From Ignavibacteria bacterium (GTDB taxonomy: Bacteria > Bacteroidota > Ignavibacteria > Tepidaquicellales > Tepidaquicellaceae), in assembly GCA_036262055.1 (NCBI GenBank), contig DATAJP010000002.1:950177-1014176 (forward strand): a stretch of DNA of 64,000 nucleotides. Direction: 5' to 3'. The notes beneath the pieces were generated by a model. It made no database searches and was not told the origin of the DNA. It worked only from the letters and a program-made list of their open reading frames with translations. A program made the translations under genes and the position numbers. Numbering within the stretch: position 1 is the first letter of the stretch; each line of letters opens with the position of its first letter. Shown here piece after piece: positions 51,898 through 61,392 of the stretch.

Positions 51898-52335
51898 TTA
51901 ATAAGAACTTGGTTTACTTAAACTTTTTAATTCAAGAGATGGACGCTTCAACTTATGGAAAAATTCCCTAACGCCGCTGCCTATTCCTGATATAATTCTC
52001 ATTCCTTTGTTAATATAATCAGAGCCAAAATTCTGCACCTTATCGACTGTATTCAGTATTTCATATCCTTTCTCTACAACTGCATCCGATAACAATTCTA
52101 CCTTCCGTATTTTCAATTTTACATCGTCAGATATTTCTTTAATATCATCAATTACGTAATTGGCATCGGTTATAAAAGATGAAACAGACATGGAAGTTTT
52201 TTCCACCTCCATTTCAATTTTTTCAACCGAGCTTGTGATACGCTTTAATGAAGATATTAAGTATATAGCGAGTATAATCGCAGTGATGTAGAAAATAATC
52301 TGGAATATAGTAACTATTAAATTGAGAGTGTCCAT
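51898..52335 (-). CDS. DUF948-like membrane/coiled-coil protein
   Basis: 145 residues. One N-terminal membrane helix (IIFYITAIILAIYLISSL) and then a predicted amphipathic coiled coil (ITSSVEKIEMEVEKTSMSV onward). DUF948 and similar proteins are membrane-anchored and often adjacent to ytxH, as here. No enzymatic motif. Member of the leftward stress-like operon. Confidence 0.7.
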   Translation of the reverse strand: MDTLNLIVTIFQIIFYITAIILAIYLISSLKRITSSVEKIEMEVEKTSMSVSSFITDANYVIDDIKEISDDVKLKIRKVELLSDAVVEKGYEILNTVDKVQNFGSDYINKGMRIISGIGSGVREFFHKLKRPSLELKSLSKPSSY

Positions 52336-52363
52336 CTCGATAGCTTTGAAATTAATTTAACAT

Positions 52364-52738
52364 TTATTTCTTCGAATAAAGATAACCCGAATTTACATCT
52401 TCATTAATGTCTGAAATCATTTTACTTCCGTTGTCTTTATTCGATTTCAATAAATGTCCGGCTTTTTTGCTGATTTCTTCAGCCCTTTTTACTGCTTCAT
52501 CAATTATGGTTTCTGCTTTCTTTCTGCCGTCCGTAATCATTTTTGATGCCTTATCTTTTGTTGCCGCAATATAATGCTCAACATCATCCACAATATCGTC
52601 CTTCTTTTCCATAATATCTCTTCGCAGTCTTTTACCGCTTTTTGGTGCATAAAGCAGCGCTATTAAACCGCCGACTACGCCGCCGGTTATTACGCCAAGC
52701 ATAAAGCTTTTTACTGATGATGATTTTTCTTCTAACAT
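52364..52738 (-). CDS. YtxH-domain protein
   Basis: 124 residues. The glycine-rich helix FMLGVITGGVVGGLIALLYA followed by PKSGKRLRRDIMEKKDDIVD is diagnostic of YtxH. The remainder is a long charged helix. Family function is unknown but linked with general stress in Bacillus. ACAGGAGG lies 8 bases before the ATG, a strong Shine-Dalgarno that the housekeeping genes here lack. Second gene of the operon. Confidence 0.85.
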   Translation of the reverse strand: MLEEKSSSVKSFMLGVITGGVVGGLIALLYAPKSGKRLRRDIMEKKDDIVDDVEHYIAATKDKASKMITDGRKKAETIIDEAVKRAEEISKKAGHLLKSNKDNGSKMISDINEDVNSGYLYSKK

Positions 52739-52753
52739 TTTATACCTCCTGTG

Positions 52754-53383
52754 TTAATGCTTTAAATTACAAAATGATTTTATATTCCATTTGCTGTTGG
52801 AATGTAAACTCTTGACCATTATATCATCTTTCGGCTTTGAAAGAAATGACAGCATCTTCCAGATTAAAAAAGATTTTGCCGATGATGACATTGATATTAT
52901 AATACAGCTATTGTTGTTTCTTAAGAGCTCAACAGCTTTTTGTATGTTTTTTTTAATTGTTAATAATTTAAAATAATAGAGACTCTCGTTAAAAATTATT
53001 GTATCGTAGTTTCTTGAACCGTTAAATGAATCAAAGTCAGTGACTTCAAAGACAGGTTTATTTCCAAATCGTTCTCTTGCCATCTTTATTGCCTTTTGTG
53101 AAAAATCAATTCCGTGATAAGAAATTGAATCATGTGTTATGAGTTCATATAATGAACCATTGCCACAACCTACATCAAGCACATTATGTTTTTCATCACC
53201 GGTTTTTGACGAGAGTAATCCGGATAGAATATAATTCCTTGGCTGCTGGTCGACGCTGTCCATTTTTTCTGAGTAATTCTGTTCATACATTTTATCCCAA
53301 AGTTTATTAGTATTGTTAAGGTATTTATTATATACATTAAATATTCCTCTATTTACAATTTGTGCTGTGTTTAGTAAATTCAT
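52754..53383 (-). CDS. Class I SAM-dependent methyltransferase
   Basis: 209 residues. NVLDVGCGNGSLYELI is SAM motif I, FEVTDFDSFNGSRNYDTIIF is in the motif II/III region and IISMSSSAKSFL is late. Substrate unknown. It is the first gene of the leftward block running to 49993 and is preceded by a -24/-12-like promoter on the minus strand. It could be independent of the small membrane proteins, but 15 bp separates it from ytxH. Confidence 0.8.
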   Translation of the reverse strand: MNLLNTAQIVNRGIFNVYNKYLNNTNKLWDKMYEQNYSEKMDSVDQQPRNYILSGLLSSKTGDEKHNVLDVGCGNGSLYELITHDSISYHGIDFSQKAIKMARERFGNKPVFEVTDFDSFNGSRNYDTIIFNESLYYFKLLTIKKNIQKAVELLRNNNSCIIISMSSSAKSFLIWKMLSFLSKPKDDIMVKSLHSNSKWNIKSFCNLKH

Positions 53384-53496: not shown

Positions 53497-53520
53497 TGAC
53501 AAATTTGACTATTTTTGTCA
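53497..53520. promoter_or_regulatory. TGACAAA-N10-TTTGTCA inverted repeat
   Basis: A 7-bp perfect inverted repeat with a 10-base spacer in the divergent region between the methyltransferase operon and the histidine kinase gene, roughly 60-85 bp upstream of the minus-strand -24 box. It may be a regulator site. Its half TGTCAGAAATG on the minus strand resembles the palindrome at 59623. Confidence 0.45.
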
Positions 53521-53540: not shown

Positions 53541-56500
53541 ATGATTGTACCTTCAAAATTAAGAAGCTCTTTTAATAAAAATATTTCCGGATTCACGGCA
53601 AGACTGCCGTTAGAAAAATTTATTCCTGCAACATTTTTCGTTTTCCTGCTGTGCATTATAATAATGAGTATAATTATTTATAGAAACATTGATGAATACA
53701 GGACAAACATTAACAGGATAAATCACTCAAATGAAATAATGAAAGAAAATGCAGCTATAGGAATTTCAGCTGCATATCTGCCCGCTCTAAGACGTGAATA
53801 TATAAATTCCGGAAATGGAAAATTTCTTAATAATTATAATTCTCAAAAAGATTCTCTTCTTTCAAAAATCAGCCATATAAAAAAATTAACATCTGCCAAT
53901 CCGGTTCAACAGAATCTGATATGGATTTTAGATTCATTGATTAATTCAAACATACAAATTCTTGATAATTCGATATATCAATACCATCAGAATAACGGAC
54001 TTTCCTTAGCACAGGATGAAATAAATAATCTGATTAGGCATAAGCTGCTTGAAATAGCCGTGGTTACAAAAGCAATTGAAGATGAAGAAGCTCGTTTACT
54101 TCATCAGGAAATGTCAGAGTCGGAAAGAACAAACCGGAACTCACAGATATTTATCATAGCGACGAGTTTGTTTTCTTTTATTATTATTGGATTTTCGTTA
54201 TATGTATCCAACAAGCTAATAAAAAATAAAAATCAGACGGAACGTCTGCTTGTAAAATCATATGATGAGCTTGAAGACAAGGTTGATGAAAGAACTCATG
54301 AGCTAAAAATGTCAAATGAAAAATTAAAAGATGAAATTACGTCGAGAAAAAAAATTGAGGCATCATTAAGAGAGAGCGAAAAACGTTTCAGGACTCTTGC
54401 GGATTCTGCTCCTATTTTAATATGGATGGCAGACGAGGATAAATTATGCAATTACTTTAATAAAATTTGGCTGGACTTTACTGGAAGGTCGCTTGAACAA
54501 GAATTAGGAAATGGATGGGCTGAAGGTGTTCATCCGGATGATTTACAGAGATGCATGGATATGTATACAACTGCATTTGACAGGAGAGAAAAATTTCAAA
54601 TGGAATACCGGTTGAGAAATTATGCCGGTGATTATTGCTGGATATTGCATAAGGGTGTTCCTCTGTATGAAGGGAATGAGTTTATAGGATATATAGGCGG
54701 TTGTATAGATATAAACGAAAGAAAGAAAACTGAACAGTTCCTGAACATACAGTATATAATTTCTAAAATTCTGGCAGAAGAGCATTCGCTTGAGATTGCT
54801 TCAAGGAAAGTGCTTGAAGAAATTTGCCATGCAGTAGGTTGGGATTTCGGAATCTTATGGATTGTTGAAAACGAAAAACTAATAGTGGAAGCGCTCTGGA
54901 GCTCCGATAAAGATGAAAAATTAAAATATTCATTAATGGAAGACCGCAGCCGCGAAATCAATAAAGGCGACGGTCTGCTTGGCAGAGTCTGGGAAAATAA
55001 ATCTGCTTTATGGATTCCTGTTATTCATAAAGAACAACAATTCGTAAGGAAAAATGAAGTTATTGCAATGGGCTGGAATTCAGTATTTGCCACGCCTATT
55101 ATGAATGAAAACGCCGTTATTGCAATTATTGAATTTTTTAATAAAGACATATCCACTCCTAACAAGGAAATGATTAACGTGCTTGAGGCAATCGGCAGGC
55201 AAATAGGAAATTATATCGAAAGAAAAAAAGCTGAAGAACAGCTTAATTCATATCATGAGGACCTGGAAGGAAAAGTCAAAGAAAGAACTATTGAGCTTGC
55301 CAATACATTGCAAAAGTTAATAAGTGAGATTGATGAAAAGGAAAAAATCCAGAACAGGCTGAAATTATTTGCGCATGCCGTAAGGGGCATTAAGGAATGT
55401 ATTTACATAACAGACCTTAAGAATAATGTAATTTTCGTAAACAGCGCATTTGAAAAAATTTATGGATATTCGGAAGAAGAAACTAAAGGAAAAGAAATTC
55501 CTATTCTAACTGCAAAACATATTTCCGATGAAAAAAGGAATGAAATCCTTCAAGGCACTATGAAGGGCGGTTGGAAAGGCGATTTTTTAACAACAAGAAA
55601 AGATAACTCTGAGTTTTATGTTTCTCTATCGACAACAACTATCAAAAATGATGAAGGTGATATAGAGGCGATTATAGGCATATGCCAGGACGTAACGGAG
55701 AATAAGCAGAATCAAGAACTGATAAATAAACGTTATAGTCTTTTAAATCTGTTAAATGATGTAATGAAGGTTACAAATAAAACGTTTAACTTGAATGAAG
55801 CAATTCAACATGCTGTTAATAAAGTCTGCCAATATACAACCTGGGATATAGGTCATTGTTATTTATCTAAGAATAATCAACTGGAATCTTGTGCAATATG
55901 GAATGAAGATTTGAACCCGGTTTACAACGAGTTTAAAGTTCTGACAAGGGACATAATTTTTCAAAGTGGTGAAGGACTGCCGGGGGCAACTTTAGAAACC
56001 GGAAAACCTTTTTGGATAAAGATAGATGATTTAATCGACATTAATAAATATAAACGGGCGAAGTTAGCAAAATCTGCAGGATTATCAACCGGCATATGGG
56101 TACCTATTATTAAACAAAATGAAACTGTTGGTGTTCTGGAATTCTTTAAGAAAGACAAATATAATCTTGATAATGAAATGCTTGAATGCCTCGTAAATAT
56201 TGGCTTGGAAATAGGAAGCGTGCTTGAAAGAGATGAAATTATAACAAAAATCAGAGAGAGTGAAAAATTGCTTATTGATGCTCAGCATATTGCCAAACTT
56301 GGAAGCTGGGAATGGGATGTTCAAAACAATACGGTTTCTTGGTCAAGCGAACTTTATGAAATTTATGAACGTAAGCCCGAAGACATTGATTTGGACTATG
56401 AGTCATTCCTATCGGTTAATCATCCTGACGACGTAGAATATACAAAACAAATTATCGGCAAAGCATATCTTGACAAAGAACCGTTCGATTATTTTCATAG

Positions 56501-57395
56501 GATTGTCACACCGGACAATAAAGTAAAAACAGTAAAGTCTACCGGTGAAGTATTTACCGATGCTGAAGGCAATATTACAAGGATGTTTGGAACGTGTCTG
56601 GATGTAACAGAAATAAAAGAAACTGAAAAAAAATTAAGAGAAAGTGAAGAAGAACTTAGAAAAGCTAACATAAAATTAATCGAAACACAGAAGGAACTTA
56701 TTCATAATGAAAAGCTTGCTGCGCTCGGAAGATTCTCATCGGGTATAGCTCACGAAATCAGAAATCCTCTTGCAAACATAAGAGGATTGGCACAGATGGT
56801 TTCACGCGCAAACGTCGATGAAAAGCTTGAAAAACATCTGAATTACATTATGATAAATGTCGATTTAGCAAACAACATTATAAAAGATTTATTGGACTTT
56901 GCCTCGCCTGAAGACTTAGCTTTTAGGGAAGAAAACATTCGTGAAATTATAAATAACATAGTTGAAAGCGTAAAACCTGCTTTCTCTGAAAAAAATATAA
57001 ATATAATACTGGATATTCCGGATAATCTTCCGAATATTGAAGTAGATAAATTAAAGCTTGAGAATGCATTTTTAAATTTTGTATTTAATGCAAAAGATGC
57101 AATGCCTGACGGAGGTAAGATTACAATAACCGTGAGACATGATAAAGATACCGATGAATTAATACTTTATTTCACAGATACGGGAATAGGAATTGCGCAG
57201 GAAAATCTGGATAAAATTCTTGAGCCGTTTTTTACAACTAAAAACACCGGAACAGGTTTGGGCTTAAGTCTTGCTTACCAAACTGTTAAATCGCATGACG
57301 GCGGATTCAACATCAGGAGCGCCGTTGGAAAAGGAACACAGATAGAAATTAAATTACCAATAAAAAATAATAATGGAAAAAATATTAATAGTTGA
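53541..57395 (+). CDS. Large hybrid-input sensor histidine kinase (2 TM, 3 PAS, 2 GAF)
   Basis: 1284 residues. Order: helix about 28-48, a periplasmic segment resembling CHASE3 (50-200), helix about 203-224, a coiled coil, PAS1 (about 280-395), GAF1 (about 405-562), coiled coil, PAS2 (about 605-720), GAF2 (about 735-895), PAS3 (about 905-1035), then HisKA with H1071 ([14 protein letters not shown]) and HATPase ([25 protein letters not shown]). No receiver domain is attached. It should autophosphorylate and donate to the NtrC-like protein encoded by the next gene, whose start overlaps its last 23 bp. The many input domains suggest integration of several signals. Confidence 0.93.
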
Positions 57396-58728
57396 TGATA
57401 ATGAATATTTAAGATTTACTTTGTCAGAGCTTCTCGAAGGCGCGGGATTTGCTGTAACAGCCGTTGAGGATGGCGGCGATGCAATACGGCAGGTGAAAGA
57501 ACAGCCGTATTCTCTTGTCATACTTGATATGAAGCTGAAAGAAATGGACGGGAGTGAAGTGCTGAGGAGAATTAAATCAATAAAAGAATCTCTCCCTGTA
57601 ATAATACTTACAGCGTTTGGTGATATTAAAAGCGCTGTAGAGACCATAAAGATGGGAGCAAATGATTATATCACAAAGCCCTTTGACAATGATGATATGC
57701 TTAAAGTTATAAGGAAAACCCTCGAAATGAATTATCTCAATCAGGAAGTTAATATATTGAGAAAAAAGATGGAGGAGGCATATAAATCGGGCGACGTTGT
57801 CGGCAAAAGCAAGGTTATGCTGGACGTATTTGAGCAAGTTAAAATAGTTGCGCCGACTAACTTAACTGTTATGATTGAAGGTGAAAGCGGAACAGGAAAA
57901 GAAATTATTGCAAACATGATTCACAGATTAAGCGACAGAAATAAAAATGCTCTCATTTCAGTTGACTGCGGTGCAATTCCCGACACTCTCATTGAAAGCG
58001 AGCTTTTCGGTCATGAAAAAGGAGCTTACACAGATGCGAAAAATATGAAGGAAGGAAAGTTTGAGCTTGCTAATAACGGAACAATCTTTCTTGATGAGAT
58101 TACAAACCTTTCAGATTCAAACCAGATAAAGCTTTTAAGAATCATTCAGGAAAGAAAAGTTACGCGCCTTGGTTCCAAAAAGCCGATTGATTTGAATGTA
58201 AGAATCATTGTTGCATCAAATATACGTTTGAGCGATGCTGTAAACAATAAAACTTTCCGTCATGACTTGTATTATCGTTTAAATGAATTTCATATTGACC
58301 TTCCGCCCCTTCGTGAAAGAAAAGATGACATCCCTTTGTTTGTTGAATATTTTATTAAAGATGCAAATAAAGAACTTAATAAATCTATCAGAGAAGTATC
58401 ACCGGTTATAATGGAAAAATTGATGAATCATAGCTGGCCCGGTAACGTGCGTGAGCTTAGAAATGTGATTAGAAGGTCTGTCTTGCTTTCTCTAACTCCT
58501 GTTATTAATACGATTCAGATACCTGATGATATTATGCGTATGCCTCAACAGGAATCTGCCGTTGAAAACGATAAATTTTCCATTAAACATTCAACCAAAG
58601 CTGTTGAAAAAGAATTAATTATTAAGGCACTTAATGAAAGCGGAGGAAATAAATCGAAAGCCGCTAAAATTCTCAATATGAATGAGCGGACATTTTACAG
58701 AAGACTAAAAAGTTTGGGGATTGAATAA
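57373..58728 (+). CDS. Sigma-54-dependent NtrC-family response regulator
   Basis: 451 residues. Receiver with phosphoacceptor D52 (LVILDMKLKEMDG), AAA+ domain with Walker A GESGTGKE (170-177), Walker B TIFLDEI, and a Fis-type helix-turn-helix (GGNKSKAAKILNMNERTFYR). The sigma-54-contacting loop is GAYTDA (217-222) instead of GAFTGA; Tyr is tolerated, Asp at the fifth position is unusual. It activates promoters of the -24/-12 class, several of which I find nearby. Translationally coupled to the kinase. Confidence 0.94.
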   Translation: MEKILIVDDNEYLRFTLSELLEGAGFAVTAVEDGGDAIRQVKEQPYSLVILDMKLKEMDGSEVLRRIKSIKESLPVIILTAFGDIKSAVETIKMGANDYITKPFDNDDMLKVIRKTLEMNYLNQEVNILRKKMEEAYKSGDVVGKSKVMLDVFEQVKIVAPTNLTVMIEGESGTGKEIIANMIHRLSDRNKNALISVDCGAIPDTLIESELFGHEKGAYTDAKNMKEGKFELANNGTIFLDEITNLSDSNQIKLLRIIQERKVTRLGSKKPIDLNVRIIVASNIRLSDAVNNKTFRHDLYYRLNEFHIDLPPLRERKDDIPLFVEYFIKDANKELNKSIREVSPVIMEKLMNHSWPGNVRELRNVIRRSVLLSLTPVINTIQIPDDIMRMPQQESAVENDKFSIKHSTKAVEKELIIKALNESGGNKSKAAKILNMNERTFYRRLKSLGIE

Positions 58729-59485: not shown

Positions 59486-59534
59486 TTTGTTAACCTCCTA
59501 TAAGTTAATTGTTTTTACTGCTACCATATAAATT

Positions 59535-59549
59535 ACAATTGGCGTGCCA
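59535..59549 (-). promoter_or_regulatory. Candidate sigma-54 promoter of the beta-barrel gene
   Basis: Minus strand CTGGCACGCCAATTGTAA: TGGCAC-N5-TTGT, matching the extended consensus YTGGCACG-N4-TTGC at all but the last C. About 50 bp from the start codon. Confidence 0.75.
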
Positions 59550-59622
59550 GTAAAAAATCTGCAAATTTAAAATAAATATTCACTTTTTTAGTTAAATACC
59601 GCTCGGACATCCCTGACCTTCT

Positions 59623-59637
59623 TGTCAGTAAATGACA
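59623..59637. promoter_or_regulatory. TGTC-N7-GACA palindrome between divergent sigma-54 promoters
   Basis: TGTCAGTAAATGACA, a 5-bp inverted repeat around five bases. It lies about 75 bp from the minus-strand -24 box and about 50 bp before the plus-strand one. A second copy at 60431 has the same arrangement. Likely activator-binding site, by inference. Confidence 0.55.
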
Positions 59638-59686
59638 TAGGGTTAAAATTTTATATTAAATATAAATTTATTATTAAGGGAATTCA

Positions 59687-59703
59687 TTGGTATGAGTTTT
59701 GTT
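59687..59703 (+). promoter_or_regulatory. Candidate sigma-54 promoter of the DUF3347 lipoprotein gene
   Basis: TTGGTATGAGTTTTGTT: TGGTAT-N5-TTGT, two deviations from consensus. The predicted start of transcription (about 59713) leaves a 23-base leader before the ATG at 59736. It excludes the upstream start at 59622. Confidence 0.55.
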
Positions 59704-59735
59704 TTAATATTATAGAACATCAAAAGGAGACATAT

Positions 59736-60404
59736 ATGAGAAAGTTAAAATTTTTAATCGCATTTATTTTTATTTTAGGATTTATTTCCTGTAATAAACA
59801 GCAGCAAACTAATTTGGAAAAAGAAGTTGATACTGCAACAACAAAGGTAAGAAAAGAACTGGATACTTTGATTTCATCAATTAAAAGCGGGGATACGATT
59901 TTTAACAATGTAAAAATAACACAGGTTGATACAGCAAAACTTTCGTCTCCCGAGCTTCGAGAAAGCATAAATAACATTTTTTCTTACTATATAGATATAA
60001 AAAATGAGCTTGCAGATAACGATTCTGTTGATTCCAGAAGCAAAGCAAAAGAAATGATGAGTGTTGTTTTAACATCAATTGAAAAAATAGGTCCAAAAAA
60101 CATAGATAAAAAATGGAAATTTTCATCAGAAAAAGTTGAAAAAGCTGCCGCTGAAATTGAAGCAGCAGGAACACTGGAAAAACAACGGATATTGTTTGAT
60201 AAATTAAGCAAATCTGTTCTTGAAGCAATTCAACAATATGGCTTGGAAGATAAAACTATTTATCAATTGAGTTGCAGTGATGCGTTGTCCGGTAAGGGCG
60301 GAACTTGGTTATCGGATTCTAAAAATAGTGACAACCCATATTTAGGCGAGAATGCTTCTAATAAGAATTGCGCGAAAGTTGTTGCCGCCTGGAAATTTAA
60401 TTAA
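59736..60404 (+). CDS. DUF3347-domain lipoprotein
   Basis: 222 residues from the ATG at 59736, preceded by AAGGAGA. The signal ends in a lipobox (FISC), with Lys after the cysteine. The C-terminal half resembles DUF3347: WKFSSEKVEKAAAEIEAAG, AIQQYGLEDKTIYQLSCSDA, GKGGTWLSDSKNSDNPYLG. DUF3347 modules sit in metal-efflux adaptors or stand-alone periplasmic proteins, and the late cysteines could bind metal. A sigma-54-like promoter precedes it. Confidence 0.78.
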   Translation: MRKLKFLIAFIFILGFISCNKQQQTNLEKEVDTATTKVRKELDTLISSIKSGDTIFNNVKITQVDTAKLSSPELRESINNIFSYYIDIKNELADNDSVDSRSKAKEMMSVVLTSIEKIGPKNIDKKWKFSSEKVEKAAAEIEAAGTLEKQRILFDKLSKSVLEAIQQYGLEDKTIYQLSCSDALSGKGGTWLSDSKNSDNPYLGENASNKNCAKVVAAWKFN

Positions 60405-60430
60405 ATTACCTGCTGAAAATGAGACAGCTT

Positions 60431-60445
60431 TGTCGGATTCTGACA
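60431..60445. promoter_or_regulatory. TGTC-N7-GACA palindrome upstream of a sigma-54 promoter
   Basis: TGTCGGATTCTGACA, about 75-90 bp upstream of the -24 element at 60519, the usual range for an enhancer-binding site. Same half-sites and spacing as at 59623. Confidence 0.55.
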
Positions 60446-60518
60446 CGTGAATTGGCAGAAACAGCTTCAAAAAGATATAAATTAATTGCAAAACAAGTGA
60501 TTTTTTGAAGCTGTTGAA

Positions 60519-60534
60519 TGGCACGATAATTGAC
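60519..60534 (+). promoter_or_regulatory. Candidate sigma-54 promoter of the 89-residue protein / yciF operon
   Basis: TGGCACGATAATTGAC: TGGCACG-N4-TTG fits the consensus except for A in place of the -12 C. About 45 bp before the 60581 start codon. Confidence 0.7.
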
Positions 60535-60580: not shown

Positions 60581-60850
60581 ATGAGAAAAAATCCATATAA
60601 TCTTCCGCAGCATATGGAAGAAGATGATTTTCTCTATGCCATCAAAGACACCGAAGAAATCGAAATGGATATGAGACAGAGAGAAAATCAAAGCGAACCG
60701 GATTCAGAAACCCAAAGAACCGGTAATTCACCGCAAAAAAAAGATAAGTTGTTTGAGAATGAAAATGACAATGATGAGTCAGATGAAAATGAAAATAAAT
60801 CAAACAATGGTTACGACAATTTAGGAAGTGATTACATTAGTTTATTTTAG
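60581..60850 (+). CDS. Acidic low-complexity small protein, unknown function
   Basis: 89 residues, rich in Glu, Asp and Asn (for instance FENENDNDESDENENKSNNG), ending in DYISLF. Probably disordered; no family recognised. A Shine-Dalgarno GAGGAG stands about 10 bases before ATG and a sigma-54-like promoter is just upstream. Cotranscribed with the DUF892 gene, 41 bp later. Confidence 0.65.
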   Translation: MRKNPYNLPQHMEEDDFLYAIKDTEEIEMDMRQRENQSEPDSETQRTGNSPQKKDKLFENENDNDESDENENKSNNGYDNLGSDYISLF

Positions 60851-60891
60851 TGAACAATTAGTTTTTATAAAAATTTAAAATAAAAAAGAAA

Positions 60892-61392
60892 ATGGCAAAG
60901 TTAAAATCATTAGAAGATTTCTTCATTGAAGAATTAAAAGACCTTTATAGCGCTGAAAAACAAATTTTAAAAGCATTACCTAAGATGGTTAAAAATGCAA
61001 CTTCAGAAGAACTGAAAGAAGCGCTTCAAAATCATCTTGAAGAAACAGAAAATCAAGTTACAAGACTTGAACAAATTTCCAAAAATATCGGAAAAGGTTT
61101 GACAGGTAAAAAGTGCAAAGCCATGGAAGGATTACTGGAAGAAGGAAAAGAAGTTATGGAAGAAGAAGCTGAACCCGCAGTAAAGGATGCAGCTATAATC
61201 GCAGCAGCACAGAAAGTTGAACATTATGAAATCGCTTCTTATGGATGTGCAAGAACTTATGCAAAATTACTTGGAGACACAAACTCTGAAGAGCTGCTTC
61301 AGGAAACACTTGATGAGGAAGGAAACGCTGATAAAACTTTGACTTCTATAGCTGAAGAGATTAATATCGAAGCCCTCGAAGAAGAAGAATAA
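60892..61392 (+). CDS. yciF: YciF/DUF892 ferritin-like stress protein
   Basis: 166 residues. LEDFFIEELKDLYSAEKQIL, ALQNHLEETENQVTRLEQI and AAAQKVEHYEIASYGCARTY are the diagnostic helices with ferritin-like di-metal ligands (Glu and His). YciE/YciF proteins are induced by general stress in enteric bacteria; a metal or oxidative role is suspected. Second gene after the sigma-54-like promoter; an inverted repeat follows its stop. Confidence 0.9.
   Translation: MAKLKSLEDFFIEELKDLYSAEKQILKALPKMVKNATSEELKEALQNHLEETENQVTRLEQISKNIGKGLTGKKCKAMEGLLEEGKEVMEEEAEPAVKDAAIIAAAQKVEHYEIASYGCARTYAKLLGDTNSEELLQETLDEEGNADKTLTSIAEEINIEALEEEE

Follow-up and report, generated by a model that had tools for sequence, protein, structure and literature searches.

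The closest described systems are those of NtrC, AtoC, ZraR and DVU1063/FlbD, where, as at the locus analysed here, a receiver-AAA+-Fis HTH regulator lies beside a kinase and inverted-repeat enhancers are found upstream of -24/-12 promoters. In Pseudomonas, the half-site of PilR is TGTC, near -80 to -120. For PilR, which Pseudomonas and Geobacter have in common, one paper characterises the sites by GTCT elements close by and by the sequence TGT-N11-AGA (PMC6058289); the likeness to the present operator is one of motif only, and, as a difference, no pilus genes were seen among the proteins scanned in the cluster. Validated NtrC-type regulators of Desulfovibrio bind inverted repeats of 4-6 bp, 3-8 bp apart, and the validated DVU1063 site, GGCA-N4-TGCC (PMC3333781), has the same geometry as the GACA-N4-TGTC described here. 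The site of LuxO, another NtrC-type regulator, is also a short dyad, TTGCA-W3-TGCAA, and in vibrios sigma-54 promoters drive the Qrr noncoding RNAs (PMC10162802). The locus very probably holds a system of a known kind, a standard NtrC/sigma-54 switch with predicted binding and transcription, which differs from the NtrC-type systems in its half-site (TGACA), its stress/envelope targets and its lineage.

The window, i.e. the whole stretch of DNA analysed, comprises 64,000 nucleotides of an Ignavibacteria genome of 2.87 Mb (G000). Its features, and those of related stretches, are collected in Table 1. From its sequence, the product of 57373-58728 is an NtrC-type (group I) sigma-54 activator, with a receiver domain (PF00072, 109 bits), a sigma-54 AAA+ domain (PF00158, 223 bits) and a C-terminal Fis-type HTH (PF02954, 52 bits). 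The phospho-acceptor Asp52 is invariant in 15 orthologs, which share 60-66% identity and a nearly invariant HTH, and the AAA+ loop, GAYTDA, is a variant of GAFTGA, with GAFTDA or GAFTGA in the orthologs (pattern GA(F/Y)T(D/G)A). Identity with AtoC, NtrC, ZraR or the PEP-CTERM regulator was rejected on the NCBIfam cut-offs (423.7 vs 714, 379 vs 559, 375 vs 760 and 365 vs 503 bits, respectively). Around the kinase-regulator pair lie genes for an outer-membrane (OMP) beta-barrel, DUF3347, DUF892 (YciE-like), YtxH, DUF948 and SDR proteins, as well as a low-affinity iron permease, a GH130 protein and a glycosyltransferase; much of this set recurs at orthologous regulators in two families, the kinase-regulator-OMP-DUF3347-YciE-YtxH neighbourhood being conserved. 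Elsewhere in the genome, a paralogous regulator (C2:22105-23448) has an exact sigma-54 box in its vicinity (L054:1499, minus strand; G000 C2:21981), and the candidate operator at -60 from this box, TGAGAATTTTCTCA (TGAGA-N4-TCTCA), differs from that of the window; this paralog is possibly a sister specificity.

Table 1. Positions of the genes, promoter boxes, operators and RNA candidates (window numbering unless a locus is named)
Feature	Position	Strand	Remark
Sensor histidine kinase	53541..57395	+	CHASE3, PAS, GAF, HisKA, HATPase_c; 23-bp overlap with regulator gene
NtrC-type response regulator	57373..58728	+	Receiver, sigma-54 AAA+, Fis-type HTH; proposed operator-binding protein
Methyltransferase, YtxH and DUF948 genes	51898..53383	-	Predicted target; promoter 53421 38 bp upstream
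Outer-membrane beta-barrel protein, 209 aa	58856..59485	-	Predicted target; promoter 59534 49 bp upstream
DUF3347 protein	59736..60404	+	Predicted target
89-aa ORF and DUF892 (YciE-like) gene	60581..61392	+	Predicted target
Sigma-54 -24/-12 box TGGCATAATAATTGAA	53421..53436	-	Upstream of methyltransferase/YtxH/DUF948 genes
Sigma-54 -24/-12 box TGGCACGCCAATTGTA	59534..59549	-	Upstream of beta-barrel OMP gene
Sigma-54 -24/-12 box TGGTATGAGTTTTGTT	59688..59703	+	Upstream of DUF3347 gene; weakest of the four
Sigma-54 -24/-12 box TGGCACGATAATTGAC	60519..60534	+	Upstream of 89-aa ORF and YciE-like gene
Operator A core TGACCTTCTTGTCA	59614..59627		N4 core 59615-59626; GACC-N4-TGTC, one mismatch to GACA-N4-TGTC
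TGTC-N7-GACA at operator A, TGTCAGTAAATGACA	59623..59637		Right half-site 59623-59626 plus third half-site GACA 59634-59637
Operator B core GACAGCTTTGTC	60423..60434		Exact GACA-N4-TGTC; centred -90 from 60519 promoter
TGTC-N7-GACA at operator B, TGTCGGATTCTGACA	60431..60445		Operator B right half-site plus third half-site GACA 60442-60445
Operator C core (minus-strand letters AGTCAAATTTGTCA)	53497..53510		N4 core 53498-53509; one mismatch; centred -67 from 53421 promoter
~330-nt RNA-like copies	L136:1718-2056, L142:1685-2019, L141:1540-1934, L156:1500-1850	-	
~330-nt RNA-like copies	L145:542-880, L135:994-1363, L087:1646-1972, L131:1179-1530	+	
150-nt RNA candidate	L129:3288-3450 = G000 C2 about 1016287-1016449	-	~2.3 kb outside window

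An earlier note on this DNA had drawn attention to a TGTC-N7-GACA palindrome repeated at enhancer distance from sigma-54 promoters. Both copies are exact, and their surroundings are as claimed: the first lies between two divergent -24/-12 boxes, its centre being ~81 bp upstream of the -24 box T of the omp promoter and ~58 bp from that of DUF3347, and the second, for which about 75-90 bp had been given, is centred ~81 bp upstream of the -24 T of the 60519 box. The bare motif is unremarkable. With one mismatch it occurs 13 times in the window against 14.3 expected, and genome-wide it has 26 places where the reversed pattern, taken as a control, has 32, so that the motif alone is enriched in neither count and its placement, rather than its frequency, is the non-random feature.

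The element conserved among promoters and species is an overlapping palindrome, TGACA-N4-TGTCA, which has one half-site in common with the N7 pair; each reported palindrome consists of the right half-site of an N4 core plus a third half-site. For 46 strong intergenic sigma-54 boxes, which came from the window cluster and from 19 related stretches, the preceding 200 bp were examined. There, GACA-N4-TGTC was counted 23 times against 0.04 expected (maximum of 1 in 200 shuffles), and TGTC-N7-GACA 9 times against 0.03, a count in which divergent promoters enter twice and which amounts to ~7 independent sites in five genomes. Both arrangements exceed chance in these regions, the N7 one being the weaker and secondary, yet non-random. 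The consensus from 54 distinct exact N4 sites is TATGACA-N4-TGTCATA. Operator A is common to two divergent sigma-54 promoters, and its centre lies at about -71 relative to the -24 box of omp and at -67 relative to that of DUF3347. At operator C a further half-site TGTC is found at 53516-53519; the "weaker relative" reported near 53.5 kb (TGTCAGAAATG, minus strand) proved to be one half of this operator, the centre of which precedes the 53421 promoter by 67 bp.

The N4 and N7 dyad centres are 9.5 bp apart, which places both on nearly the same face of the helix. This near-equal phase, together with the excess of N7 pairs over chance and the perfection of both window palindromes, would also suit a dimer sitting on TGTC-N7-GACA, with the half-site spacing of NtrC, the N4 arrangement then being the junction of adjacent dimers. 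Nevertheless, an N7 partner accompanies only ~3 of the 54 exact N4 cores, and the flanks outside TATGACA-N4-TGTCATA carry little information; this arrangement of the dimer is considered fairly improbable, the N4 dyad being its more likely seat.

The four boxes of the window, predicted sigma-54 promoters, all have the -24 GG and the -12 element at the fixed spacing, the consensus in relatives being TGGCAYRNNWWTTG. Counted upstream from the -24 box, the N4 operators mostly have their centres at 57-59, 66-69 or 78-82 bp, positions spaced by roughly one turn of the helix, and a phasing near 11 bp, averaged over 17 target families, gave Rayleigh-type p values of 0.006-0.015 (periods 10.5-11.5). The dyads are thus located at phased distances upstream and are common to several promoters, as is characteristic of upstream activating sequences, which they putatively are. 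The interval from operator B to the 60519 box also contains a perfect 14-nt inverted repeat (AACAGCTTCAAAAA/TTTTTGAAGCTGTT, 60460-60473 and 60502-60515) without a poly-T tail.

The link with the regulator was assessed in 44 genomes of the order, searched for the operator+promoter pattern and for a regulator ortholog. The pattern was found in 17 of the 19 genomes with the ortholog and in 1 of the 25 without it (p=4e-9) and, among those at least 90% complete, in 15/16 versus 0/21 (p=1.7e-9), values which treat genomes as independent when the whole gene cluster is inherited together. Both regulator states occur inside the genera g2, g7, g8 and g17, and the operator tracks them. G000 itself was counted through one distant site (C3:873747), because its own best site (60519, gap 84) lies beyond the gap range searched. 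The exceptions are G013, where the regulator is present but the strict pattern is missing and the best site has N5; G024, 67% complete; and G041, 75% complete, which shows the pattern with no regulator found. Moreover, six OMP homologs from five regulator-less genomes have neither a sigma-54 box nor the operator upstream, and a search of 12 regulator-less genomes for the DUF892 gene, at E 1e-25 and without a positive control, gave no match. Four pattern matches (L084, L085, L104, L133) occur in G052 and G054, which belong to other families of the same class and have no close regulator ortholog; these were left out of the support and may be due to chance or to a distant relative of the system.

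These results bear on which protein would bind. The operators could be real and yet be read by another co-inherited sigma-54 activator, as the genome holds ~22 matches to the regulator, hence many related activators, and the tie to the 57373-58728 product is correlational, the whole cluster travelling together. Against this, the presence or absence of the ortholog tracks the operator inside several genera, no sigma-54 activator besides the 57373-58728 product was seen among the conserved neighbours, and the paralog mentioned above has a different candidate operator nearby; a binder other than this product is judged improbable.

A matrix of operator plus promoter was trained on the relatives, with G000 left out. 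Its four top sites in the window were the four promoters themselves (60519+, 33.6, by way of operator B, the best-scoring site; 53421-, 32.1, with operator C; 59534-, 31.2, and 59688+, 22.4, which have operator A in common), the fifth-ranked site scoring 9.3. When the entire window was shuffled 60 times with its dinucleotides preserved, the highest score reached was 21.5. A further site just outside the window (L129:3460-, C2 about 1016459) scored 30.9, with a zinc-ribbon gene downstream that resembles the one linked to the operator in G032 and G039. An explanation by chance, in which an AT-rich genome yields palindromes that happen to lie close to sequences resembling sigma-54 boxes, would account for the lack of enrichment of TGTC-N7-GACA alone, but hardly for a matrix from relatives that sets the window sites apart from all shuffles, nor for an operator and promoter conserved in two families, and is given next to no credence. 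The earlier note had named two outcomes as speaking against it, a random occurrence of the motif across the genome and its non-conservation in relatives: the former is what was seen for the bare N7 pattern, while the latter was not, operator and promoter being conserved. Just as negligible is the idea that the operators belong to a palindromic repeat dispersed in G000, GACAGACATTCYTGTCTGTC, which contains GACA-N4-TGTC and makes up most of its genome matches, since the operators lack its outer arms and its copies in the window lie elsewhere (32696, 33911, 33933 and 43726). This repeat (GACAGACATTCYTGTCTGTC/GACAGGCATTCCTGCCTGTC) is present at many further G000 loci (L114, L116-L118, L120-L123, L125-L127), and it is largely because of it, unrelated as it is, that GACA-N4-TGTC alone shows no enrichment in G000 (55 vs 56 for the control).

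Position and helical phasing, the recovery of the window sites by the matrix from relatives, the co-occurrence with the regulator and the upstream regions of OMP homologs in regulator-less genomes all support the earlier reading of these elements as NtrC-type activator sites, although that reading put its emphasis on the wrong dyad; very probably, the boxes serve the 57373-58728 regulator as upstream activating sequences (enhancers). In the course of events that we infer, the adjacent kinase would sense a stress or envelope signal and phosphorylate Asp52 of the regulator. Its Fis-type HTH dimer would read TGACA half-sites in the arrangement TGACA-N4-TGTCA; in some cases an additional half-site lies about a turn of the helix away, and TGTC-N7-GACA results. 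The regulator would then oligomerise on the operator, ~80-115 bp ahead of the transcription start, and contact the sigma-54 polymerase by DNA looping, so opening the promoters of the OMP, DUF3347, YciE and methyltransferase/YtxH genes, with operator A serving two divergent ones. In relatives, the genes that follow the operator encode a single-domain receiver with an OMP, other OMPs, secreted proteins, a zinc-ribbon protein and YciE-like proteins, among others, and the types of target genes suggest that the regulon has a role in the general stress or envelope response.

The outputs may include RNA. In seven genomes of the related genus g17, no ORF follows operator and promoter; their place downstream is taken by a stretch of ~330 nt that looks like a transcript, is highly similar among these genomes and has a terminator-like hairpin at its end. 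G034 carries an eighth copy, which has diverged, with an exact GACA-N4-TGTC and a CGGCAC -24 box, so that the operator lies upstream of the element in 8/8 genomes of this genus, the only one in which the element was found. Of the 76 pairs in the consensus fold of the element, 17 show compensatory changes, and no Rfam family matched at gathering score. It is not present in the regulator-less G031 and G035, a plasmid search gave no match, and neither did a search of G000 by sequence with its core. In G000, a 150-nt candidate sits between the operator-linked promoter L129:3460- and the zinc-ribbon gene; its structure (fold z -6.3) is closed by a terminator-like stem, GGCGAGAC/GTCTCGCC, followed by a T run, and BLAST returned nothing but itself above noise. 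Both RNAs are predictions. The likeness to LuxO-Qrr lies in the NtrC-type regulator, the sigma-54-dependent RNAs and the short dyad site, and the difference in an RNA of ~330 nt, with no Rfam family, seen in a single genus. We lean slightly towards a kinase-regulator pair acting through proteins and RNA, as LuxO does with the Qrr RNAs, the operator controlling stress/envelope genes together with a new structured ncRNA family (~330 nt, eight genomes) and possibly also the 150-nt hairpin RNA of unrelated sequence.

Within the literature searched, in which few subscription papers were covered, the motif, the regulon and the RNA appear to be undescribed. No paper was found on Ignavibacteria with sigma-54 and enhancer-binding protein, nor any match on PilR with TGTC and promoter; the matches to TGACANNNNTGTCA all concern plant WHIRLY proteins, and no such motif is printed in the text of the Desulfovibrio sigma-54 regulome paper. 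The present work offers a predicted regulator-operator-regulon assignment for a sigma-54 system of the Ignavibacteria, a group for which no described enhancer-binding regulon was found, and provides a precise predicted binding motif which can be mutated. Furthermore, a covarying RNA family absent from Rfam has come to light, and since its control is already predicted, its function is testable. For the Ignavibacteria, the results suggest that a two-component/sigma-54 switch controls genes of the DUF892/YciE, YtxH and SDR types, like general-stress genes elsewhere.
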